Part shown: piece by piece, positions 28,911 to 64,000 of the stretch
Layout: every line of letters begins with the position of its first letter
How positions within the stretch are numbered: position 1 is the first letter of the stretch
NCBI RefSeq assembly: GCF_040802235.1
Contig: NC_133170.1
Coordinates: forward strand, 5,595,001 to 5,659,000
DNA from: Manis javanica
Taxonomy: Eukaryota > Chordata > Mammalia > Pholidota > Manidae
DNA: 64,000 bases
Direction of reading: 5' to 3'
Notes under the pieces: model-generated
What the model was told of the DNA's origin: nothing
The model's database searches: none
What the model saw: only the letters and a program-made list of their open reading frames with translations
Translations under genes and position numbers: made by a program

Positions 28911-31900
28911 CTAGAAGGAAGACAAAACAGTTAAAACTCTTTCCACAATTAAAAAAATATGCTATTTCTCCTGAACTAATAGAGTCTTTGAAAAACAAAA
29001 ATGACCAGAATCTTCTTTCAATAAAACTATTCAATGTTAACCTTATTTCCAGCTTTGCAAAAACACACTATACTTTTATAAGGACACTTTCTGGTACTTC
29101 TCACACACCTATCAGTTTGGGAGCCATTAAGACAATACGTGTATGTGCCAAAGCTTCTATGGTCTGAAATGCTTTGAATCATTCAACAAAGAGTTAGGGA
29201 GTTATTGTTTGCAAGACACTGAACTGAATTCTGTGGAGATGAATGGACATAGGGCACATGGTTCCACTTCCTGAGCTTAAGTCTTAGCACCTTCAATAAG
29301 CATTTATTGAACATTACCACCCATTTCTTTTAAAGATATCCCTTCACAATTCAGCACTTGAGAGAATATAAATGCGTATAGAGAGGTACACCACTATACC
29401 AAATGACCTTACTATTTCATGGTGAAATCACAGGGATTTCCCTGAAAACAGTAGGTCCAGTCTAAACTTAAATGTTTTTTTGGCCTATTTCAGAATCTGA
29501 AAGTATTCTTACTGCCTTGAATTGTATCCCCACCCACTAAATCTAAATCACCAGATCAGATGATTTAAGATTGCTTGAATAAAAGTAAGAGCTGTACATC
29601 ACCTGCCGGTGAAATGCTCGTGGGGCCCCACCCACTTCTGCGGCGTCCCTGTATTTACACCCTTGTGATTCATTCTCCCCGACAGCCCTGTCCGTTCATC
29701 AAGAGTAGCTAAGTTACTATCTTCTCTGTGAAGCTTTACCCAACGCCACCCATTCCTGTCCTCCACTGTGTCCCCACAGCACCTTATACCCATCTCCCTC
29801 TTATAATTTAGCTACTGAAATAACTTGAGTTAAAAATAATTGCTGTAATTCATATTTACTGAGTTATTCTATCAGGCACTATTCTAAGCACCTGCCATTT
29901 ATTAAGCTCCCCTGCTCTTGATAACAGCCTATGAGGTAGAATCTGTATTATTCCCATTTAAGAGATGAAGACACAGAGACACTAGTACATGGAGAGAATC
30001 CAAGCCCAAGCGACCCCCCTCCAGGGCCTGCATTCTTGAACCACATCAAAGTTCCTCAGGTAAAGTCAGTTTCCTCCAAAGAAGATAAAGTTCCATAAGA
30101 GAAATAATGCCTTATTTACCCCTGTAGTCTCAGTGCCCAGCACATGGAATACGTTCAATAAATATCTACTGAACTTACTTGAGTCACAAATATTTACTTC
30201 AGGTTTTACAAATAAATTAGAGGTATTCAAGTATTTAAATACAAATGTCGGGAAGGCAGAGCCAACATGGCGGCGTGAGGACAGTGGGAATCTCCTCCCA
30301 AAAACATATATATTTTTGAAAATACAATACAACTAATCCTAAAAGAGAGACCAGAAGACACAGGACAACAGCCAGACTACATCCACATGTGTGAGAGCCC
30401 AGCGCCTGGTGAAAGGGGTAAGATACAACCCCCGGCCCGGCGGGACCCGAGCACACCTCCCCCCAGCTCCCAGTGGGAGGGAGAGGGAGCCCAGGACTGC
30501 TAAACACCCAGCCCCAGCCACCCGCACCAGAGCGCAGACACAGTGCATGCGTGGAGGGCTGGAAACTAGGGAAATAGGGCAGCAAGACCTCTGAGCAGGT
30601 TCCAAAGCTGATGCCGCTGTGACAAAGAAAAGTGAGTGCTTTTTGAAAGTCTTAAAGGGACAGGGACATAACAGCTGGATGGATACAACACAGGTCACAG
30701 CCCAGTGGCTGGAAATTACAGGGAAAACCGGGCGCACTAACCCCCTGGGCAACAGCTCTGAGACCCCTCACGGAGGTAAACAGCCAAACAGCCCCCCGGG
30801 TCCATTACCCCTCCAGGCGCTGCGAAAGCAGAGAAACAGCCTAAGGCAGACCCCGCCCACAGAAAGGGAAATTCCTCCATATCGGCTGGGCAGGACACAA
30901 AGACCCAGTCTACATGCAATTATCCAACACAAGCCACTAGGGGTCGCAGTTGTCTCAGTAAAGAAAGGCCAGTAGCAAGTGAAAAGTTTGGCCCTCCCAG
31001 CTGACAGTCAATAGCACCTGTCAACATGAAAAGGCAAAAAAATATGATCCAGACAAGACTAACCCAGACAGCTTCGGCATCTGCCCCATCTTCCCCTGAG
31101 AAGGAACCTGGGGAGATAGATTTAACCAGTCTTCCTGAAAAAGAATTCAAAACAAAAGTCATAACCATGCTGATGGACTTGCAGAGAAATATGCAAGAAC
31201 TAAGGAAGGAGAATACAGAAATAAAACAAGCTCTGGAAGGACTTCAAAACACAATGGACGAGATGCAAGAGACCATTAATGGACTAGAAAACAGAGAACA
31301 GGAACGCAGAGAAGCTGATGCAGAGAGAGATAAAAGGATCTCCAGGAATGAAAGAATTCTAAGAGAGCTGAGTGACCAATCGAAACAGAACAATATCCGC
31401 ATTATAGGGGTACCAGAAGAAAAAGAGAGAGAAAAAGGGATAGAAAGTGTCTTTGAAGAAATAATTGCCAAAAACTTCCCCAAACTAGGGGAAGAAATGG
31501 CCTCTCAGACCACAGAGGTACACAGAACTCCCATGACAAGAGATCCAGGGAGGGCAACACCAAGACACATAATAATTAAAATGGCAAAGATCAAAGACAA
31601 GGACAAAGTATTAAAGGCAGCCAGAGAGAAAAAAAAGGTTACCTACAAAGGAAAACCCATCAGGCTATCATCAAACTTCTCAACAGAAAGCCTACAGGCC
31701 AGAAGAGAATGGCATGATAAACTTAATGCAATGAAACAGAAGGGCCTCGAACCAAGACTACTGTATCCAGCACGAATATCATTTAAATATGAAGGAGGGA
31801 TTAAACAATTCCCAGACAAGCAAAAGTTGAGGGAATTTGCCTCCCACAAACCACTTCTACAGGGCATCCTACAGGGACTGCTCTAGATGGGAGCAGTCCT

Positions 31901-34900
31901 AAAAAAGAGCACAGAACAAAACACCCAACATATGAAGAAGGGAGGAGGAGGAATAAGAAGGGAGAGAAATAAAGAATCATCAGACTGCGTTTATAATAGC
32001 TCAACAAGCGAGTTAAGTTAGACAGTAAGATAGTAAAGTAGCTAACCCTGAACCTTTGGTAACCACAAACTTAAAGCCTGCAATGGCAGTAAGTTCATCT
32101 CTCTCAATAATCACCCTAAATGTAAATAGACTGAATGCACCAATCAACAGACACAGAGTAACAGAATGGATAAAAAAGCAAGATCCATCCATATGCTGCT
32201 TACAAGAGACTCACCTCAAACCCAAAGACATGCACAGACTTGAAGTCAAGGGATGGAAAAAGATATTTCATGCAAACAACAGAGAGAAGAAAGCAGATGT
32301 TGCAATTCTGGTATCAGACAAAACAGACTTCAAAATAAAGAAAGTAACAAAGGACAAAGAAGGACATTACATAATGATAAAGGGCTCAGTCCAACAAGAG
32401 GATATAACCATTCTAAATATATATGCACCCAATACAGGAGCACCAACATACCTGAAACAAATACTAACAGAACTAAAGGAGTAAATAGAATGCAATGCAT
32501 TCATTCTAGGAGACTTGAACACACCACTCACTCCAAAGGACAGATCCACCAGACAGAAAATAAGTAAGGACACAGAGGCACTGAACAACACACTAGAACA
32601 GATGGACCTAATACATCTACAGAACTCTACATCCAAAAGCAACAGGATACACATTCTTCTCAAGTGCACATGGAACATTCTCCAGAATAGACCACATACT
32701 GGGCCACAAAAAGAGCCTCAGTAAATTCTAAATGATTGAAAACCTAACAACCAACTTTTCAGACCACAAAGGCATAAAACTAGAAATAAACTGTACAAAG
32801 AAAGCAAAAAGGCTCACAAACACATGGAGGCTTAACAACACGCTCCTAAATAATCAATGGATCAACGACCAAATCAAAATGGAGATCCAGAAATATACGG
32901 AAACAAATGACAACAACGACACAAAGCCCCAAATACTGTGGGATACAGCAAAAGCAGTCTTAAGAGGAAAGTATATAGCAATCCAGGCATATTTAAAAAA
33001 GGAAGAACAATCCCAAAGAAATGGTCCAATGTCACAATTATCGAAATTGGAAAAAGAAGAACAAATGAGGCCTAAGGTCAGCTGAAGGAGGGACATAATA
33101 AAGATCAGAGAAGACATAAATAATATTGAGAAGAATAAAATAGCAAAAATCAATGAAACCAAGAGCTGGTTCTTCGAGAAAATAAACAAAATAGATAAGC
33201 CTCTAGCCAGACTTATTAAGAGGAAAAGAGAGTCAACACAAATCAACAGTATCAGAAACGAGAAAGGAAAAATCACAACGGACCCCACAGAAATACAAAG
33301 AATTATTAGTGAGTACTATGAAAACCTATATGCTAACAAGCTGGGAAACCTAGGAGAAATGGACAACTTCCTAGAAAAATACAACCTTCCAAGACTGACC
33401 CAGAAAGAAACAGAAAATCTAAACAGACCAATTACCAGCAATGAAATTGAAGTGGTAATCAAAAAACTACCAAAGAACAAAATCCCTGGGCCAGATGGAT
33501 TCACCTCAGAATTTTATCAGACATACAGGGAAGACATAATACCCATTCTCCTTAAAGTTTTCCAAAAAATAGAAGAGGAGGGGACACTCCCAAACTCATT
33601 CTATGAAGCTAACATCACCCTAATACCAAAACCAGGCAAAGACCCCACCAAAAAAGAAAACTACAGACCAATATCCCTGATGAACGTAGATGCAAAAATA
33701 CTCAACAAAATATTAGCAAACCGAATTCAAAAACACATCAAAAGGATCATACACCATGACCAAGTGGGATTCATCCCAGGGATGCAAGGATGGTACAACA
33801 TTCGAAAGTCCATCAACATCATCTACCACATCTACAAAAAGAAAGACAAAAACCACATGATCATCTCCATAGATGCTGAAAAAGCATTTGACAAACTTCA
33901 ACATCCTTTCATGATAAAACCTCTCAGCAAAATGGGAATAGAGGGCAAGTACCTCAACATAATAAAGGCCATCTATGATAAACCCACAGCCAACATTATA
34001 TTGAACAGCGAGAAGCTGAAAGCTTTTCCTCTGAGATCAGGAACTAGACAGGGATGCCCACTCTCCCCACTGTTATTTAACATAGTACTGGAGGTCCTAG
34101 CCACAAAACAAAGAAATACAAGGAATCCAGATTGGTAAATAAGAAGTTAAACTGTCACTATTTGCAGATGACATGAAACTATACATGAAAAACCCTAAAG
34201 ACTCCACCCCAAAACTACTAGAACTGATATCAGAATACAGCAAAGTTGCAGGATACAAAATCAACACACAGAAATCTGTGGCTTTCCTATACATTAACAA
34301 TGAACCAACAGAAAGAGAAATCAGGAAAACAACTCCATTCACAATTGCATCAAAAAAAATAAAATACCTAGGAATAAACCTAACCAAAGAAGTGAAAGAC
34401 TTATATTCTGAAAACTACAAGTCACTCTTAAGAGAAATTAAAGGGGACACTAACAGATGGAAACTCATCCCATGCTCATGGCTAGGAAGAATTAATATCG
34501 TCAAAATGGCCATCCTGCCCAAAGCAATATACAGATTTGATGCAATCCCTATGAAACTACCAGCAACATTCTTCAATGAACTGGAACAAATAATTCAAAA
34601 ATTCATATGGAAACACCAAAGACCCTGAAGAGCCAAAGCAATCCTGAGAAAGAAGAATAAAGTAGGGGGGATCTCACTCCCCAACTTCAAGCTCTACTAT
34701 AAAGCCATAGTAATCAAGACAATTTGGTACTGGCACAAGAGCAGAGCCACAGACCAATGGAACAGACTAGAGAATCCAGACATTAACCCAGACATATATG
34801 GTCAATTAATATTTGATAAAGGAGCCATGGACATACAATGGCAAAATGACAGTCTCTTCAACAGATGGTGCTGGCAAAACTGGACAGCTACATGTAGGAG

Positions 34901-37900
34901 AATGAAACTGGACCATTGTCTAACCCCATACACAAAAGTAAACTCAAAATGGATCAAAGACCTGAATGTAAGTCATGAAACCATTAAACTCTTGGAAAAA
35001 AACATAGGCAAAAACCTCTTAGACATAAACATGAGTGACCTCTTCTTGAACATATCTCCCCAGGCAAGGAAAACAACAGCAAAAATGAGCAAGTGGGACT
35101 ATATCAAGCTGAAAAGCTTCTGTACAGCGAAAGACACCATCAATAGAACAAAGAGGAACCCTACAGTATGGGAGAATATATTTGAAAATGACAGATCCGA
35201 TAAAGGCTTGACATCCAGAATATACAAAGAGCTCACACGCCTCAACAAACAAAAAACAAATAACCCAATTAAAAAATGGGCAGAGGAATTGAACAGACAG
35301 TTCTCTAAAAAAGAAATATAGATGGCCACCAGACACATGAAAAGATGCTCTACATCGCTAATTATCAGAGAAATGCAAATTAAAACTACAATGAGGTATC
35401 ACCTCACACCAGTAAGGATAGCTGCCATCCAAAAGACAAACAACAAATGCTGGCGAGGCTGTGGAGAAAGGGGAACCCTCCTACACTGCTGGTGGGAATG
35501 TAAATTAGTTCAACCATTGTGGAAAGCAGTATGGAGGTGCATCAAAATGCTCAAAACAGACCTACCATTTGACCCAGGAATTCCACTCCTAGGAATTTAC
35601 CCTAAGAACGCAGCAATCAAGTTTGAGAAAGAGATGCACCCCTATGTTTATCGCAGCACTGTTTACAATAGCCAAGAATTGAAAGCAACCTAAATGTCCA
35701 TTGATCGATGAATGGATAAAAAAGATGTGGCACATATACACAATGGAATACTACTCAGCCATAAGAAAAGGGCAAATCCTACCATTTGCAGCAACATGGA
35801 TGGAGCTGGAGGGTATTATGCTCAGTGAAATAAGACAAGCAGAGCAAGAGAAATACCAAATGATTTCACTCATCTGTGGAGTATAAGAACAAGGGAAAAA
35901 CTGAAGAAACAAAACAGCAGCAGAATCACAGAACTCAAGAATGGACTAAGAGGTACCAAAGGGAAAGGGACTGGGGAGGATGGGTGGGTAGGGAGGGATA
36001 AGGGGGTGGGGAGAAGAAGTGGGGTATTAAGATTAGCATGCATGGTGGGGGGAGAAAGGGGAGGGCTGTACAACACAGAGAAGACAAGTAGTGATTCTAC
36101 AACATTTTGCTATGCTGATGGACAGTGACCGTAAAGGAGTTTATAGGGGGGACCTGGTTATACAGAGGACCAAAGCCTAAGTTGGCTACCCGGAAAATGA
36201 ACTAAGATACGATATGAAAAAGAACTTCCAACATCAGCACTCTCTGGAAGACTCATGCCAGAAGATGATCATCAAAAAACCCCAACAAGATCCATGCACT
36301 GCTACAGGTGTAGATGCACTCACCCACCGGTTCCTGGACTTGCCATGGGAATGAAGAAGGAGATATCTAAGCTGGCCTGTGCATACAGTAAAACAACAAA
36401 TTCGACCGGATCTATACTGTTGGAACTCAACCAAGAATTAGGAGAAGTGCAAATTGTAGCGCTCCAAAATCTTACAACTACAGACTATTTACTGTTAAAA
36501 GAACATATGGGATGTGAACAGTCCCCAGGAATGGGCTGTTTTAATTTGTCTGATTTCTCTCAGACTGTTCAAGTTCAGTTGGACAATATCCACTGTATCA
36601 TAGATAAGTTTTCACAAATGCCTAAGGTGCCTAACTGGTTTTCTTGGTTTCACTGGAGATGGCTGGTAATTATAGGTATGCTTTGGTTATGTAACTGTAC
36701 TCGTATTATGTTAATGTGTGGGCGCAATTTAATTAGTAGTTTAAAACCTATACATGCTTATGTTACTCTACAAGAAGATATGTCAAAGAAATAATCTTCC
36801 CATGTTTTCTTACGCCTGCTACTTCTATAGCTTTTCTTTTTCCTTCCTAATTACAACCCTTAAATAGAATTCGAGCCTCATATCAAATTTACCATGTATC
36901 ATAATTCTTCCAGGTGGTAAAGATACCTCAAGACAAATGCTGGGCATAGAAGCCACAGGGCATAAATCTGCAAAGAAGTAAAAAACTAACCTTTTCAAAC
37001 AATAAGGCTTCTCTCTCACTTACCAACTTTACATTTCCCTGTATGGCCCCGGAAGATGACTGGTTAGCCAGAGACGGGTAAGATTCCTCAAGGGAGGAAC
37101 AACCTAAGACAGGCACAGTCGCAGGGGGGCCATCAGGTGAGAAATTGGGGATCAACAGAGGTGAGGCCTAGAACCTCTCCCCACCTGTTCTGAGAGAAAT
37201 CTGCTGCATCCGTGGATGTTTTATTGCCCTTGTCTAGCTTGGATTAACACACAGTCCACAAGCACACACCTGATCATCTACATTTGCTCTCTTACAACAC
37301 TAAACTATGTTTTCTACCTTTATCTTGCATCTACCTACCACTTCAGCATTTTATTAAAAATAATAATAATAAAGAGAGAAATGTGGTATCCACATATAAA
37401 TCAAGTATAAAAATCAAACGAATATTCATATTTGGACTGATTGTTTATAGTTCATAATGCATGATCAAAACTGAAAGTTTCTGTGATGACTGCCCTTGTA
37501 CTGTTCACCATGTAACTTATTCACTATGTAAGAATTTGTTCTCCATGTAAGAACTTGTTCGTTATGCTTCAGAAGATTGAAGACTGACGAAAATTAGGCT
37601 TGGGGTGGATTAATGATTCTGCGTTGAGCACTGACTCCCCTATACAGAATTTTATTGTTGTTAACAACCATTTGATCAATAAATAGGAGAGATGCCCTCA
37701 TAAAAAAAAAAAAAGTACACACTTCCAATTGTAAAATAAATAAGTAACTGGGATATAATGTATAGCATAAGAAATATAGTCAAAATATTGTAACAACTTG
37801 GTATGGTGATAGCTGGTACCTAGAATTATCATGTATATAAATGTTGAATCACTGTGTTGTACACCTGAAACTAATGTAATAGTGTGTGTCAACTACCCTT

Positions 37901-39587
37901 CAATAAAAAATAATTATCTACAAAATAAAATAAAATAAAATAAATAAATAAATACAAATGTCTTCTAAACTGTGGGTGTGGAACCTACTGCGTCCTATCA
38001 AAATTAAGGCTTTTCTTTCCTTAGTTTGGAAACGTAGAATTCAGTTTTTGTAGATTACATTTTCGTCAAGACACTTTTCACCAAATCTCACAAAAGCAAG
38101 TCATCAAAGTCGTGGACCTGACTGCACAGAAACTTATAACCAATTGTCCTGAAAACCTACCTTGTGTCTGGGCTGCACCTTGCGGAAGAGCAAATACAGT
38201 AAATAGAAGTTGCCGACGCTGAAGAGGAGATTTACGAATCTGAGCATTCCAATGGAGCAAACGACATGCTCGGACCATCCAAAGATCCAACTGGCAGGTT
38301 TGACCACTCCAACCGACAGCAGGTACAAGCCAGGTAACGTAGTAATCATGGGATCCCACTTAAAAAAAATCAAAGGCCGCCAATGAAGCAAAGCAAGAGG
38401 TAATACGACAGGACCAACACGAAGATCTCAAAGGACACCGACCGTTAAAACAGCAACGGGGCAGTTCAAGAAGTTATTCTGTGACACAGGAAAATAAGAC
38501 CCAGGCAGATCAGATTCTTCTCTAAAGGAAAGTTTTGCTTATAATTTTGCCTCTGCACCGCGTTGTGATTATTAAGATACCAGCAACCAGAAGGCAATTT
38601 AAAATCAATATCCGTTTTCCAAGACTTCCTCTGCAGAGAGCCTGTGTTTTGGTTCTAAAATTACAAATGCTTCAGTTTTAAAACTGATGAAACCATCCGC
38701 TTCAGCTGGGACTCTGGCAGATTTGGAGAGAAACAAGTGTTTAAAGAATTTAAACCACAGGCTCCAGAGTGACAGGTAATATGAACGAGCAGGAATTGGG
38801 CTAAATCCTCTATTTAATCCTGCAACACTCCTTATAGTAGATCCTACTGTTACTGTCATTTTTTGATGAGAAATCTGAAACTCAGAAAACGTCTTAGGCC
38901 ATGTAACTAGTCAGTAACAGAGCCAAGATTTAAAATCAGGTCTTTCTCAAACCAGACTCTCTTTCTGACCACTATTCTGTATTGCTCCATCAGAAAAGGC
39001 AGGATGTCTACTTTTTTATGTATCTATGTGTTAATTATATACTCAAACATGAGCCCACTTCTCTGTCAGTTTATCCAGAAGGTTCCCGAGACCACCAGGG
39101 ACAGGATTCGTGTAACTTTTCTTGGCGGCTGAAGACTCGCCCTGCCCGCCCTGCCCACCCGCAGCGGGGTTCGCAGACAGCTCGTGGGCGCAGCCCAAGG
39201 CCTCTAATGCCGGGATAGGGACGAAAACCTGGGGCAGCTGCTACCGGCTGCCCGGAGGGGCGGCCCCTCAGCTCCCCGCTGGCCGACCTCGAGCCCCGAT
39301 TCCCGGCAGGCAGACCTGCTTCCGTTCCCTCGCTAGCGTGTCGGCGCTGCGACGGGAGCCGGACCGCAGCGCCCGCCACATCCCGGCGCAGGGAGGCCAG
39401 GGCGAGGGGCGCCCACCTGGGAGAGCGAGAAGCGGCCCTCGCAGTAGCGCTGCGCCTGCGGCAAGTGGAAGACCTCGTCCATGTAGGGCTCCCGCAGCGC
39501 GCGGCTGAAGGCGGCGAAGAGCAGGCAGGACGCCAAGAAGGTGCAGCTCAGGGCAGCCGAGAAGTAGTAACCCTCCAGCTGCGCCAT
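27855..39587 (-). CDS. ALG10: Dol-P-Glc:Glc(2)Man(9)GlcNAc(2)-PP-Dol alpha-1,2-glucosyltransferase, three-exon gene
   Basis: The coding sequence joins exon 1 (39587-39417), exon 2 (38358-38161) and exon 3 (28910-27855) on the minus strand. This gives 57 + 66 + 351 = about 474 residues, close to the usual mammalian length of about 473. ALG10 (DIE2/ALG10 family) is a multi-pass ER membrane enzyme. It transfers glucose from dolichyl-phosphate-glucose to the Glc2Man9GlcNAc2 lipid-linked precursor, the final step before oligosaccharyltransferase. The sequence shows the N-terminal luminal acidic motif around [13 protein letters not shown] (residues 34-46), many hydrophobic membrane segments, and the conserved C-terminus ending DIQRFMW. 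Both junctions fall between codons (phase 0) and use GT-AG. No stop or frameshift was found, so this looks like a functional gene and not one of the processed copies known in some genomes. Human has two paralogues (ALG10, ALG10B), and I cannot tell which is the direct counterpart. Intron 1 is about 1.06 kb. Intron 2 is about 9.25 kb, mostly filled by one L1. Confidence 0.96.
28921..29849. other. ALG10 intron 2, proximal to exon 3
   Basis: Intronic AT-rich sequence between the exon 3 acceptor and a MIR. A GC-richer patch at 29600-29800 could be an old MLT-like relic but lacks clear landmarks. No exon-like frame. Confidence 0.5.
29850..30060 (-). repeat. MIR SINE in ALG10 intron 2
   Basis: Reverse-oriented relative to the plus strand: ATATTTACTGAGTTATTCTA, CAGGCACTATTCTAAGCACC, TATGAGGTAGAATCTGTATT, TTCCCATTTAAGAGATGAAG and ACACAGAGACAC, in the standard antisense MIR order. 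Confidence 0.8.
30236..30249. repeat. Target-site duplication, left copy
   Basis: The 14-mer TAAATACAAATGTC directly precedes the start of the L1 5' untranslated region and is repeated exactly at 37949-37962. It marks the integration site of the composite L1 in ALG10 intron 2. Confidence 0.85.
30250..31025 (+). promoter_or_regulatory. LINE-1 5' untranslated region / internal promoter
   Basis: About 776 bases between the left target-site duplication and the ORF1 start, GC-richer than its surroundings around 30400-30850. The first 25 bases contain CCAACATGGCGGCG, which resembles the YY1-type site at the start of many mammalian L1s (core ATGGCGGC). By analogy it would drive sense transcription across the element. 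No activity can be inferred from sequence alone. Confidence 0.65.
31026..31886 (+). CDS. LINE-1 ORF1 protein (RNA-binding chaperone), intact
   Basis: An uninterrupted 286-residue frame. ORF1p forms trimers that coat L1 RNA and act as a nucleic-acid chaperone. Visible parts are a variable N-terminus (1-39), a charged coiled-coil stretch (about 40-118, rich in E, K, Q and L), an RRM-like domain starting at NNIRIIGVP (122-130), and a C-terminal domain with the ARREW motif (225-229), [10 protein letters not shown] (244-253) and the ending [10 protein letters not shown]. It is shorter than human ORF1p (338), mainly in the coiled-coil part, which varies between mammals. Its intact state contrasts with the decayed ORF2 downstream. 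The start codon is the only ATG giving the whole domain series. Confidence 0.9.
   Translation: MKRQKNMIQTRLTQTASASAPSSPEKEPGEIDLTSLPEKEFKTKVITMLMDLQRNMQELRKENTEIKQALEGLQNTMDEMQETINGLENREQERREADAERDKRISRNERILRELSDQSKQNNIRIIGVPEEKEREKGIESVFEEIIAKNFPKLGEEMASQTTEVHRTPMTRDPGRATPRHIIIKMAKIKDKDKVLKAAREKKKVTYKGKPIRLSSNFSTESLQARREWHDKLNAMKQKGLEPRLLYPARISFKYEGGIKQFPDKQKLREFASHKPLLQGILQGLL
32083..35886 (+). pseudogene. LINE-1 ORF2 (endonuclease / reverse transcriptase), disrupted
   Basis: Homology runs from [18 protein letters not shown] at the endonuclease start to the last codons near 35886, but the frame is broken repeatedly. In-frame stops are seen at 32482-32484, 32729-32731, 33083-33085, 34140-34142, 34626-34628 and 35319-35321. 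Frame changes occur near 32645, near 34100 (just before the reverse-transcriptase active site) and near 35693. Recognisable pieces include the endonuclease QETHLKPKD, the RT fingers region with [11 protein letters not shown] (near 33490), [18 protein letters not shown] (near 33625), the FADDM active-site box (near 34157), and the C-terminal cysteine motif [18 protein letters not shown] (near 35450). Full mammalian ORF2 is about 1,275 residues, and this copy has nearly full length in DNA. No functional protein can be made. Confidence 0.9.
35887..36160 (+). other. LINE-1 3' untranslated region, proximal part with G-rich tract
   Basis: Directly follows ORF2. A purine- and G-rich stretch at about 35950-36065 has many runs of three or more G, capable in principle of G-quadruplex formation and typical of L1 3' untranslated regions. 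A conserved-looking L1 segment follows (GATGGACAGTGACCG near 36117). Recognisable L1 sequence stops around 36155-36165. Confidence 0.75.
36255..36794 (+). CDS. Retroviral Env transmembrane-subunit fragment, open frame
   Basis: A 179-residue open frame. The first 30 or so residues do not resemble Env and are probably out-of-frame or junction sequence. From about residue 38 it resembles the transmembrane subunit of gammaretrovirus-like envelopes: a leucine/glutamate heptad region (51-71), a region matching the position of the immunosuppressive-like segment (about 70-85), a disulfide motif with cysteines at 87 and 95 (CX7C; the usual doubled second cysteine is absent), a tryptophan-rich pre-membrane stretch (W128, W131, W134, W136), a hydrophobic membrane span (about 136-147) and a short cytoplasmic tail. 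The surface subunit, furin site and fusion peptide are missing, so it cannot be a complete envelope protein. I cannot assign the retrovirus family precisely. Confidence 0.6.
   Translation: MPEDDHQKTPTRSMHCYRCRCTHPPVPGLAMGMKKEISKLACAYSKTTNSTGSILLELNQELGEVQIVALQNLTTTDYLLLKEHMGCEQSPGMGCFNLSDFSQTVQVQLDNIHCIIDKFSQMPKVPNWFSWFHWRWLVIIGMLWLCNCTRIMLMCGRNLISSLKPIHAYVTLQEDMSKK
37370..37381 (+). other. Retroviral polypurine tract
   Basis: The purine run AAAGAGAGAAA lies immediately before a TG that begins LTR-like sequence. This is the expected arrangement of the plus-strand primer site at an env/3'-LTR boundary. Confidence 0.6.
37382..37701 (+). repeat. Partial 3' LTR (U3 and R up to the polyadenylation site)
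   Basis: About 320 bases starting TGTGGTATCC directly after the polypurine tract and ending at the polyadenylation point. It contains the AATAAA signal near its end and a short direct repeat (ATGTAAGAA-like units near 37525-37560). It stops at the poly(A), so U5 is absent, consistent with an RNA-derived copy. Confidence 0.6.
37678..37683 (+). terminator. Retroviral polyadenylation signal AATAAA
   Basis: This hexamer lies 18 bases before the 13-A tract at 37702-37714, a normal cleavage distance. It explains the poly(A) as a true 3' end of a retroviral transcript. Confidence 0.7.
37702..37714 (+). repeat. Internal poly(A) tract
   Basis: Thirteen consecutive adenines closing the retroviral block. 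The tract is internal to the L1, since recognisable L1 3' sequence continues to its right. Confidence 0.8.
37715..37948 (+). repeat. LINE-1 3' terminal segment with A-rich tail
   Basis: Matches the characteristic 3' end of laurasiatherian L1s, with the landmark GTTGTACACCTGAAACTAAT (37856-37875) and then TCAATAAAAAATAA (37900-37913). It ends in a (AAAAT)n/(AAAT)n tail at about 37921-37948, next to the right target-site duplication. Confidence 0.8.
37949..37962. repeat. Target-site duplication, right copy
   Basis: An exact copy of the 14-mer at 30236-30249, placed immediately after the A-rich (AAAAT/AAAT) tail of the L1. Its AT-rich left edge merges with the tail, so the true duplication could be a few bases shorter. 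Confidence 0.85.
38161..38358 (-). CDS. ALG10: ALG10 coding exon 2
   Basis: A 198-base exon encoding 66 residues from [10 protein letters not shown] to KVQPRHK. The acceptor is a T-rich tract ending in AAG just above 38358. The donor GTAGGT begins at 38160. Both ends are phase 0, so the exon joins in frame to SLSQ of exon 1 and to ASSSIQR of exon 3. It encodes a luminal loop with the family's conserved [10 protein letters not shown] stretch and two hydrophobic segments. Translation runs on for some codons past both splice sites, but those extensions are intronic and do not match the family. Confidence 0.95.
38830..38990 (-). repeat. MIR SINE fragment in ALG10 intron 1
   Basis: Antisense MIR pattern: GATGAGAAATCTGAAACTCAG, then GGCCATGTAACTAGTCAG and AGAGCCAAGATTTAAAATC. 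Confidence 0.7.
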
Positions 39588-52899: not shown

Positions 52900-55370
52900 T
52901 ATAAGATGTTTTATGTAAGTCTCATGTTAGCCTCAGGAAAAAATCTCTAGGTAATTACAGAAGAGATAAACAGAAAGGAATCAAAGCATACCAGTACAAA
53001 AAAAAAATCAAATCTCAAAAAAAGGCATCATGAGAGGAAGAAAGAAACAAAAGAACTATAAAATAGAAAACAACTAACAAAATGGCAAGAGTAAATTCTT
53101 ATCAATAATTACTTCAGATGTAAATCAATTAAAGTCTCCAATGAAAAGACATAGAGTGGCTGAATAGACTAAAAACAAGACCCAAGGATAAGCTGTCTAC
53201 ATGAGACTCACTTTAGCTTTAATGATGCTCAGAGGCTGAAAGTGAAGGGATGGAAAAAGATATTGCATGCAAATAGTATCTAAAAGAGAGCAGAAATGAT
53301 TATACTTAAAATAGACAAAATAGACTGGAGTCAAATACGGTCACCATGGCCAAAGGTCATTACACCATAACAAAAGGGTCAACTCAACAGAAAGATAGAA
53401 AATAATAAATATATTTGTACCCCATATTAAAGCACCAAATAAGTAAATCAAACATTGACAGAACTTGTAGGAGAAATTGACAGAAATATGATAATAGCAA
53501 TATAATTAAATATTCCACTTTTTAATGGATAGATTACCCAGACAGAAGATCAATAACAAAACATCAGAGCTGAAAAATACTACAGATCAAAGAACTTAAC
53601 AGACATACACAGAACTCTGCATCCAACAGCAGAAAAATACATATTCTTTTCAAATATACCCAGAACATTCTCTAAGATAGATCACATGCTAGTCACAAAA
53701 CAAATTTTAACAAATTCAAGAAGACAGAAATTATTCTGAGTATGTTTTCCAAACACACTGGAATGAAACCAGAAACAAGTAATGATAAGAAAGTGGAAAA
53801 ATTTTTAAATAGTTCATGGAAACTAAACAACACATTATTGGACAACCTTTGCATTAAGGAGGCTATCAAAAGGGGAAAAAAATGTTTCTTGAAACACATG
53901 AAGACAAAACATACCAAAACATATGGGATGCAGTGAAAGCATCATTAAGGGGGAATTTTATAGCAATAAATGCTTACATTAAAAAAGAAGAAAAATCTCA
54001 AATAAACAACCTAACATTACCTCTCAAGACACCAAAGAGCAACAAACTAAGCCCAAAATTAGCTGAATAAGGGGAATAATAAAGATTAGAGCATAAATGA
54101 ATCATATAGAAAATAGAAAAACAATAGAAAAAATCAGTAAAACTAAGTTGTTTTTTCAAAAAAATAAACCAAATCGACAAATTCTTAGTCTGACACAGAC
54201 TCAAATAAGTGAAACCAAATGAAAGAGACGACAGTACAATGGATACCTTAGAAGTGAAAAGGATCAAAGGGACTATTATGAATAATTACATGCCAATAAA
54301 TTGGATAATCTAGAATAAATGGATAAACTCTTGGAAACATATAACCTACCAAAACTGAATCAAGGAGAAGTATAAAGTGGGAACAGAACAATAATAAATA
54401 AGGAGATTGAATCAGTGATTAAAAATCTCCCAACAAAGAGAGGCCCCCCAGAAACAAATGCCTTCATGGGTGAACTCTAGCAAGTGTTCAAAGAATTAAT
54501 ACTAATACTTCTTAAACTCTTCCAAAATATAAGAGGGAACGCTCTAAATTCCTTTTATGAGGCTAGCAGCACCTTGATACCAAAGTCAGACAAAACACAC
54601 TAAAAGAAAACGACAATCCAATATCCCTGATGAACACAGGCAGTAATGCTCTCTAAAATACTAGTAAACTGAATTCCATAGCACATTAAAAGGATGATAA
54701 ACTATGACCAAGTGGGATTCAGTACAAGCAAATAAATCAATGGGATAGACCACGATAACCAACTGAGAGAAAAATCACACATGATTTGCATTCTCGTGTT
54801 CACTGAGTTATTCACAATAGCTAACGTATGGGAACAGCCGAAGTGTCTGTCGATAGACGAATGGATAAAGAAAGTGTGGTACATACATACAATGGAATGT
54901 TTTCCAGCCTTACATACATACACGGATGGTACATACATACATGGATGAATCTGGAGGACATCATGATAAATGAAATAAACCAGACACAGAAAGACAAATA
55001 CTGGATGCTCCCACTTACATGTGGAATCTAAACAAGTTGAATTCATGGAAGTAGAGAATAGAACATTGCTGTCTGGGGCTGTTAGCGGGTGAGGGGAATG
55101 GGAAGATGTTGATCAAATGGTTCAAAGGCTCAGTTATATAGGATGAATAAGTTCTGGAGATCTACTACGTAAAATGGTACTTGAAGTTTGTTAAGAGTTT
55201 TGATTTTTTTTGGCTAAGAAATTTGATCTTGAATGCTCTCTCCATAAACAAACATAATCATAACTATGTGAGTTTATAATTATGTTAATTAGCTTGATTG
55301 TGGTAATCATTTCACAATTTGATATATGTATATCAAAACATCATGTAACTCATGAATACATACAAAAATA
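52900..55370 (+). mobile_element. Old LINE-1 with central ORF2 deletion
   Basis: ORF2 sequence starts near 52980. Endonuclease-region landmarks follow: ACATGAGACTCACTTTAGC near 53200, GGGATGGAAAAAGATATTGC near 53248 and ACACAGAACTCTGCATCC near 53608. The reverse-transcriptase start continues to about 54770. It then jumps to the C-terminal ORF2 region (CTATAGCTAACGT-like text near 54820 and GAATGGATAAAGAAAGTGTGG near 54859) and an L1 3' untranslated region ending near 55370. Roughly 2 kb of ORF2, including the active-site box and the cysteine motif, is missing. All frames are short and broken. Confidence 0.8.
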
Positions 55371-62624: not shown

Positions 62625-64000
62625 ATGTCACCCATCTCTTGGCTGCCTTCATCTCTGACTACCAATCTGTTCGTTGTATCTACGAGTTCTGTTTTATTTG
62701 TTGTGTTTTCTAGGTTCCACCTGTAAGTGGCATTGTATAGAATTTTCTTTCTCTGGCTGACTTCTTTCACTAAGAATGATATCCTTGCGGTCCATCCAGG
62801 TTGTCACAAATGGCAAGGTTTCCTCCTTCTTTATGGCTGAGTAATATCTGTATCTATACATCTCACTTCTTTATTCATTCATCTGTTGATAGACACTTAA
62901 GTTGTTTCCATATTTGGCTAGTATAAATAATGCTGCAATGAAAATAGGGGTACATATTTTTTTTAATCAGTGTTTTCATTTTCTTTGGATAAATACCCAA
63001 AAGTGAAATTGCTGGTTCACAGGGTATTTCTATTATCAGTTTTTATGAGGAACCTCCACACTGTTTTCTACAGTGGCTGCACCAATTTACATTTCAATCA
63101 ACAGTGTGTGAGGGTTCCCTTTCCTCCATATCCTCTCCAACACTTGTTGTTTCTTATCTTTCTGATAATAGCCATTCTAACAGGTGTGTGATGATATCTC
63201 ATTGTGGTTTTGATTTGCATTTCCGTGATGATTTGGGATGCTGAACATCTTTCCTTGTCCCTATTAACCATTGGCATGTCTTCTTTGGAAAAGATGGTTG
63301 ATATGATTTCAATTTTAAGTTTACGGAGACTTGTTTTGTGGCCTAACATGTGATCTATCCCAGAGAATATTCCATGTGTACTTGAGAAGATTGTGTGATT
63401 GCTGCTTTGGAATGGAAAATTCTGTATATAGCTATTAAGTCCATCTGGTCTAGTGTGTTATTAAAGGCCAATGTTTCCTTATCGATTTTCTGTCTGGATG
63501 ATGTACCATTGATGTAAATGGGGTATTGAAGTCCTCTATTGTTATTGTACCACTGTCAATTTCTCTCTTTAAGTCTGTTAATATTTATTTTATACATTTA
63601 GTGGAACCTATGTTGGGTGCATAAATATTTATAAATGTTATATCCTCTTGTTGGATTGACCCCTTTGTCATTATGCAGTGCCTTTCTTTGACTCTTACCA
63701 CAGTCTGTATTTTAAAGTCTATTTTTTCTGACATACTATGTAACTATAGCGACACCAGCTTTCTTCCGGATTTCATTTGCATGGAATATCTTTTCCCATC
63801 CCTTAACTTTTAGTCTTTATGTCCTTAGATACGAAATGATCTCTTGTAGGCAACATAGAGATGAGTTTTGTTTTCTACCCATTCAGCCACTCTATATCTT
63901 TTAATTAGAGAATTTAGTCCAACAACATAATTATTGATAGGTATGTACATATTGCCATTTTGTTCATTGTTTTCTGGCAGTTTTTGTAGGTCCTCTCTGT
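62625..64000 (-). mobile_element. LINE-1 with central ORF2 deletion, truncated by the window edge
   Basis: Antisense ORF2. The C-terminal region occupies about 62650-63295, with the minus-strand protein including [15 protein letters not shown] and [11 protein letters not shown]. Upstream in the element (63296-64000) it switches directly to endonuclease-region sequence (GGCCTAACATGTGATCTATC near 63341, TTTGCATGGAATATCTTTTC near 63775). The reverse-transcriptase middle is missing. An 83-codon frame at 63349-63098 reads through the join without a frame change. The element continues beyond the right edge of the window. Confidence 0.85.

Follow-up and report, generated by a model that had tools for sequence, protein, structure and literature searches.

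The window analysed here is a stretch of 64,000 nucleotides of Manis javanica (contig NC_133170.1, positions 5,595,001 to 5,659,000, forward strand). It contains an ALG10 exon with 100% identity to the Manis javanica protein P0021, and near this exon, in the opposite orientation to ALG10, lies a LINE-1 (L1) that carries a block of endogenous retroviral (ERV) sequence. The L1 and the ERV block form a single insertion at 30250–37949, with all parts on the plus strand, and a 13-bp target-site duplication (TSD) encloses all of it: the 5' copy, AAATACAAATGTC, lies at 30237–30249 and is repeated exactly at 37950–37962 (a mismatched-pair control was run). The L1 5'UTR (30250–31025) has its start placed from sequence, and homologous 5' ends are found among full-length relatives. 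It is followed by an open ORF1 (31026–31886; Pfam Transposase_22 and Tnp_22_dsRBD) and by ORF2 (32050–35693, approximate start), which is broken into multiple frames in the list of open reading frames and gives a Pfam match to RVT_1. The element thus has the coding content of a LINE-1, an ORF1 with RNA-binding and dsRBD domains and an ORF2 with reverse transcriptase, as well as the TSD pair and A-rich 3' end of a LINE-1 insertion. Older L1 fragments with 66–73% identity to this main L1 are present elsewhere in the window, at 53102–55036 and 62743–63959.

The L1 3'UTR (35694–36157) is truncated at ...GGACCTGGT, a point at which related copies (type II, below) continue with the L1 tail proper and its A-run and at which old L1s end. 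In the window it is fused at 36157|36158 to the ERV part, which spans 36158–37701. The ERV begins with only the last codons of pol, the integrase C-terminal end (36158–36204), assigned by homology to the same unit in the copies L026 and L104–L107 and by a Pfam match of L026 to IN_DBD_C that is weak (E 0.013) and below the family's cut-off. Next comes a pol/env spacer (36205–36292) in which env SU is absent; this follows from alignment with P0016, a predicted M. javanica Env that has sequence upstream of TM, and other copies are arranged likewise. An Env TM fragment (36293–36794) holds a frame of 149 codons from an ATG at 36345, and a segment found across the family leads from env to the LTR (36795–37383) with a weak purine-rich end. 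The 3' LTR (37384–37701) consists of U3 and R only, with its TG start at 37384 and AATAAA at 37678; an LTR stop at this point and an A-rich run behind it were seen in 38/38 LTR copies. The run of 13 A's that follows (37702–37714) derives from RNA terminated at the LTR poly(A) site, and the copies L010, L020 and L104 end here with TSDs of their own. Behind it lies a second acquired tail (37715–37949), which resembles an older L1's 3' end and has a separate AATAAA at 37902 and an A-rich tail. Splicing at the 36157 junction was considered and rejected, the sites being unfit by eye. All of the pieces listed in the initial annotation (L1 3'UTR, open Env TM, purine tract, TG-starting LTR, AATAAA and 13 A's) are present, the purine tract being weak. 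Its left edge for the block, 36160, was nearly exact, moving to 36158. The retroviral part contains env TM and the LTR as described there, and in addition includes the end of pol and is without env SU.

The Env TM fragment resembles the TM of ASLV (5h9c/4jpr, E = 7e-8) and matches P0016 at 73% over 54% of the query. Its cysteine motif, CEQSPGMGC (codons from 36513), is C-X7-C without CC, which is the ASLV-type single downstream cysteine that we take to mark the alpharetrovirus-like group. Pfam found no domain in the env fragment, and searches of viral contigs gave no match. Among public metagenome proteins the fragment matches P0001 (15 members) at 92%, and P0019 contains the spacer and TM in one frame. 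P0001, P0002 and P0008 are Env TM fragments of 8–32 members each from metagenome sources, perhaps reflecting pangolin DNA in animal samples. The 149-codon TM frame is intact in 11/15 window-type copies, a pattern that would fit decay from an open master. Selection on the env frame was considered and dropped, as private changes (29 synonymous, 102 non-synonymous and 6 stops, p = 0.32) gave no sign of it. Alpharetrovirus-like ERVs have been described in another pangolin, Manis pentadactyla, as ERV-Alpha-Mpen (PMC12584738), and the unit studied here resembles them in coming from an alpharetrovirus-like ERV of a pangolin.

We found the L1/ERV fusion at 194 places in the genome with a 37-base pattern allowing as many as 3 mismatches, whereas the reversed pattern, run as a control, gave 0. 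In a DNA search with the left junction (36100–36250), the best 40 of 1766 candidates were all at least 96% identical over the full query. Eight of these loci, one being the window itself and two forming a tandem pair, were extracted, and in 8/8 the L1 3'UTR, spacer, env, next segment and LTR follow in the same order, with one internal inversion and small gaps in others. A second set of 20 loci of 9.5 kb, overlapping partly with these eight, contained the spacer and env in 20/20, the LTR in 19/20 (L015 has lost it by deletion) and the old L1 end in 18/20, and the letters at the fusion junction are near-identical across the window and all 20 loci. With the right junction (37640–37780) as query, the best 40 of 1582 candidates were again all at least 96% identical, 39 at full length and one short by its first base. 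A query with the LTR only gave 1787 candidates; among the best 40, 38 downstream stretches were read (the window and L024 were left out), and 36 of them show the LTR, an A-run and the old L1 end while 2 stop at the LTR A-run. The env, spacer and LTR are joined with an L1 5'UTR, ORF1 and ORF2, so these copies do not have the hexamer-Alu-VNTR-SINE-R order of an SVA. One locus (L012, C8 92.28 Mb) is a tandem duplication of the chimeric L1 with a unit of ~8.48 kb (L005 and L006), and L009 and L011 are chimeric copies with internal inversions that affect ORF2 and the ERV part.

These searches bear directly on how the block came to lie in an L1. Seen within the window alone, the layout would suit an ERV cDNA that was inserted into this L1 copy only, an option that had been left open at the outset. 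The fusion junction at 194 places refutes this, and exact matches between the block's flanks reach at most 8 bases within the stretch examined, the longest lying off the junction; we give a private insertion practically no chance. What stands from the initial annotation is that the block is RNA-derived and was moved by L1 machinery, as seen in the A-run after the LTR R and the shared junctions, and that it belongs to a chimeric L1-ERV family, for which the junction search proposed there returned many identical junctions. An ordinary ERV family with chance L1 insertions, or an assembly artefact, is very improbable as well. A LINE-1 within a pangolin ERV has been reported for ERV-Gamma.b9-Mpen (PMC12584738), but here the TSDs enclose the entire L1-ERV unit, the fusion lies on at least 18 contigs among the matches listed, and 40/40 scored right-junction matches span LTR R, A-run and L1 end with no U5.

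TSDs and divergence also bear on how the unit was copied. An exact TSD of at least 9 bases flanks 5/12 full-length copies, window included, compared to 5/132 mismatched pairs; it is absent in 7/12, though inspection by eye gave imperfect TSDs for L015 and L024. L104, a full-length unit of the type I layout described below that terminates at the LTR poly(A), has a 14-base TSD, AAAAGCATTTAGGG, and a clear TSD was not found in the other 3/4 type I copies tested. L010 and L020 also terminate at the LTR poly(A), and their TSDs share 16 and 13 bases versus 8 and 6 when swapped. Mean pairwise distances, covering 16–21 copies per part, were 0.045 for the ORF2 end, 0.055 for the 3'UTR, 0.044 for env, 0.047 for the next segment, 0.051 for the LTR and 0.046 for the old L1 end; the L1 and ERV parts are similarly diverged, with six of the seven means at 0.044–0.055. 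The seventh mean, that of the spacer (36151–36292), is 0.023, roughly half the divergence of the neighbouring parts. With the rate applied in PMC12584738 (2.2e-9 per site and year), a divergence of 0.045 corresponds to ~10 million years. Together, the layouts and TSDs show L1-driven copying of one joined L1-ERV unit. Neither the window nor any of the 20 loci contains an intact ORF2, the longest piece being 721 aa (L012), so the sampled chimeric copies are dead. The window element, full-length and dead, belongs to a young L1 lineage of pangolins with a retrovirus-derived 3' end.

The nearest relatives of the window L1 carry this retroviral end in three layouts. A query with the L1 3'UTR only (35720–36130) gave 4603 candidates, and 37 of the best 40 were read, leaving out the window and the tandem pair, all known to have the window's layout. 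The ERV tail is present in 37/37; these are the L1s closest to the window, and the count is not evidence that every young pangolin L1 has the tail. An earlier reading of some as 'canonical' ERV-free L1s was rejected, since longer reading shows the ERV in all 37. In 31/37 the L1 first ends in a 3' tail and A-run of its own, and the ERV tail follows. Type I (6 copies) has L1 tail, A-run, a ~150-bp fragment, a further A-run, pol end, env TM and LTR. Type II (25 copies) runs from the tail of the L1 itself through an A-run to the pol end without the ~150-bp fragment, and carries an old L1 3' end beyond the A-run of the LTR. Type III (6 copies, and the window) has the L1 3'UTR fused to the ERV, and is shorter than type II by ~150–165 bases, a figure from 3 of 6 measured copies, the other 3 (170–171) having been anchored at a wrong motif and excluded. 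The old L1 end after the LTR is absent in 7/7 type I copies and was seen in 5/6 type II copies; the stretch of the sixth, L126, shows neither the LTR nor the old L1 end and has a piece of L1 5'UTR instead. The ~150-bp fragment of type I stands between two A-runs, and its own A-run suggests that it may be the end of an older retroposed sequence. The L1s of greater age in L014 and L018, with 3'UTRs 83–85% identical, show the tail, an A-run and then other sequence.

The left junction of the window had been taken for the capture event itself. Because type II copies keep the L1 tail, A-run and pol end at that point, we read the window fusion as probably a later deletion and not the original capture. 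In a tree of ~430 bases of L1 3'UTR, which is short, carries no support values and may reflect poor resolution or recombination, type III copies form no single clade and are intermixed with types II and I. A single origin of the fusion is suggested by the identical junction, and the 3'UTR tree gives it no support.

Taking these layouts together, we consider it likely that a defective alpharetrovirus-like ERV end was acquired by 3' transduction, that an old L1 3' end was gained afterwards, and that a deletion then gave the window fusion. The source L1 would have lain directly upstream of a defective ERV remnant made up of the pol end, an SU-less env and a 3' LTR, and its RNA would have passed its own poly(A) signal and terminated at the AATAAA of the LTR. 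The L1-tail-A(n)-ERV-A(n) unit formed in this way was then, as the copies show, copied as a single L1 insertion. From type I to type II, the ~150-bp fragment would have been lost and the old L1 3' end added behind the A-run of the LTR, and from type II to type III a further deletion of ~150–165 bp would have joined the L1 3'UTR to the ERV. Among later copies, a minority still stop at the poly(A) site of the LTR, as though it had remained a working terminator. The layout of an L1 3' transduction, with L1 tail, A-run, foreign sequence, second A-run and one TSD pair, is found here, the TSD coming from L104. Such transductions typically carry two A-runs, and serial ones are known (reviewed in PMC4859970). 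The donor ERV locus was not found, and for this reason read-through from a neighbouring ERV is a step that we infer; a search with the unit and the L026 upstream flank (best 40 matches) showed the flank to be another repeat.

A different first step could have led to the same later ones. Enzymes of the L1 type can jump between templates, and an L1 enzyme that copied a polyadenylated ERV RNA to its 5' end in the course of target-primed reverse transcription may have jumped to the poly(A) of an L1 RNA, which would join L1-A(n) to the ERV unit. In keeping with this, the unit starts sharply behind an A-run with GAAA repeats in 18/18 further copies, with an L1 tail preceding it in 17 (16 by script label and L153 by eye and BLAST), and in L026 a unit without L1 starts at about the same point as in type I. 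Yet among the copies read, none of the units standing free of L1 had both a poly(A) and a TSD, and the unit contains an internal A-run, as a genomic flank might. Two copies depart from the pattern: L026 has no poly(A) and no TSD and looks derived from a type I L1 copy because the two have 33/35 type Ia G states in common (see below), and L142, in which the preceding sequence is unlike the window L1, keeps the A-run and GAAA repeats, an L1-type A-run that makes it look derived too. We regard template jumping as unlikely and prefer 3' transduction. The L026 unit (509–2323, reverse) lies in a gag-like repeat (3462 candidates) and looks like a patch from a type Ia element. L026 was also tried as the ERV parent and rejected, as its flanks belong to a different repeat, found uninterrupted at other places, and it has neither poly(A) nor TSD.

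The right-hand end of the insertion had been described as a conventional L1 3' end. An L1-type end is indeed there, but it matches older L1s and not the end of the window's near relatives. Old L1 3' ends, picked by a pattern with 53 exact matches versus 0 for the control, match parts of 37715–37925 at 68–78% in 6/6 cases, and because of this we identify 37715–37949, by its similarity, as a relic of another, older L1. A second 3' transduction would be the simplest source of this end.

One branch of type I differs from the window type in a further way. When positions 2062–2434 of L104–L107 (type Ia) were aligned to 36160–36477 of the window, a tract with 114 A sites, we observed 35 differences with G in type I and A in the window type. 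These amount to 35/91 G sites inside the tract versus 6/211 outside. A 5' G neighbour is found at 2/35 changed versus 22/79 unchanged A sites (p = 0.006), and a 3' G neighbour at 14/35 changed versus 8/79 unchanged A sites (p = 0.0005). Read against the known neighbour preferences of ADAR, the 35 sites of this one type I branch look like A-to-G changes in an ADAR-like context, a likely mark of an edited RNA that was copied back into DNA. The outgroup Env proteins P0016, P0018 and P0020 have the window state at codons 36357, 36363, 36369, 36390 and 36444 and partly at 36414, and the type I state at codon 36453, the remaining codons being uninformative; with few codons behind it, this is moderate evidence for the direction of the change. 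The type I copies L132–L134 mostly have the window state in the tract. G-to-A editing of the window lineage by APOBEC3, a form of editing treated in PMC9706992, is disfavoured because most informative codons of the outgroup Env proteins agree with the window and because the neighbouring bases suit ADAR. We also entertain, as a speculation that is doubtful at present, that the retroviral tail aided this L1 lineage's takeover in pangolins, as a stronger terminator or through a viral RNA-handling signal, and that an ADAR-hyperedited RNA founded a subfamily. If true, RNA editing would be recorded in the genome as a new L1 lineage.

In open-licence papers, one of which treats L1 in placental mammals (PMC1764860), we found no described L1 with a retroviral 3'UTR, and a Dfam or Repbase entry may exist. 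The steps of assembly can be read in one genome, as capture, second tail, deletion and a likely mark of RNA editing, and they make testable what an L1 requires of its 3'UTR and what effect a retroviral terminator has on L1 success. L1-processed ERV copies of the HERV-W type are ERV-only insertions that lack U5 and finish, as the RNA did, in poly(A). The pangolin unit has in common with them the ERV RNA end, the poly(A) and the missing U5, but it adjoins L1 in nearly every copy read, L026 and L142 being the exceptions. L1 3'-transduction families, serial ones included, likewise show an L1 tail, A-run, foreign flank, second A-run and a TSD around the whole unit, as set out in PMC4859970. In contrast to these, the pangolin flank is the 3' end of a retrovirus and brings a poly(A) signal along; it is carried by all of the nearest L1s read (37/37) and became part of the 3'UTR after a deletion. 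The closest analogue is SVA, whose SINE-R, made of HERV-K env and the right LTR, is likewise an env end with 3' LTR and poly(A) copied by L1, according to the same review (PMC4859970). SVA is non-autonomous and without L1 coding sequence, whereas the pangolin element is an L1 with ORF1 and ORF2, and its tail differs in having an ASLV-like ERV source and an L1 relic behind it. In SVA, the env-LTR end is the tail of a passenger driven by L1; here, an L1 with its own enzymes took such a tail itself and multiplied.
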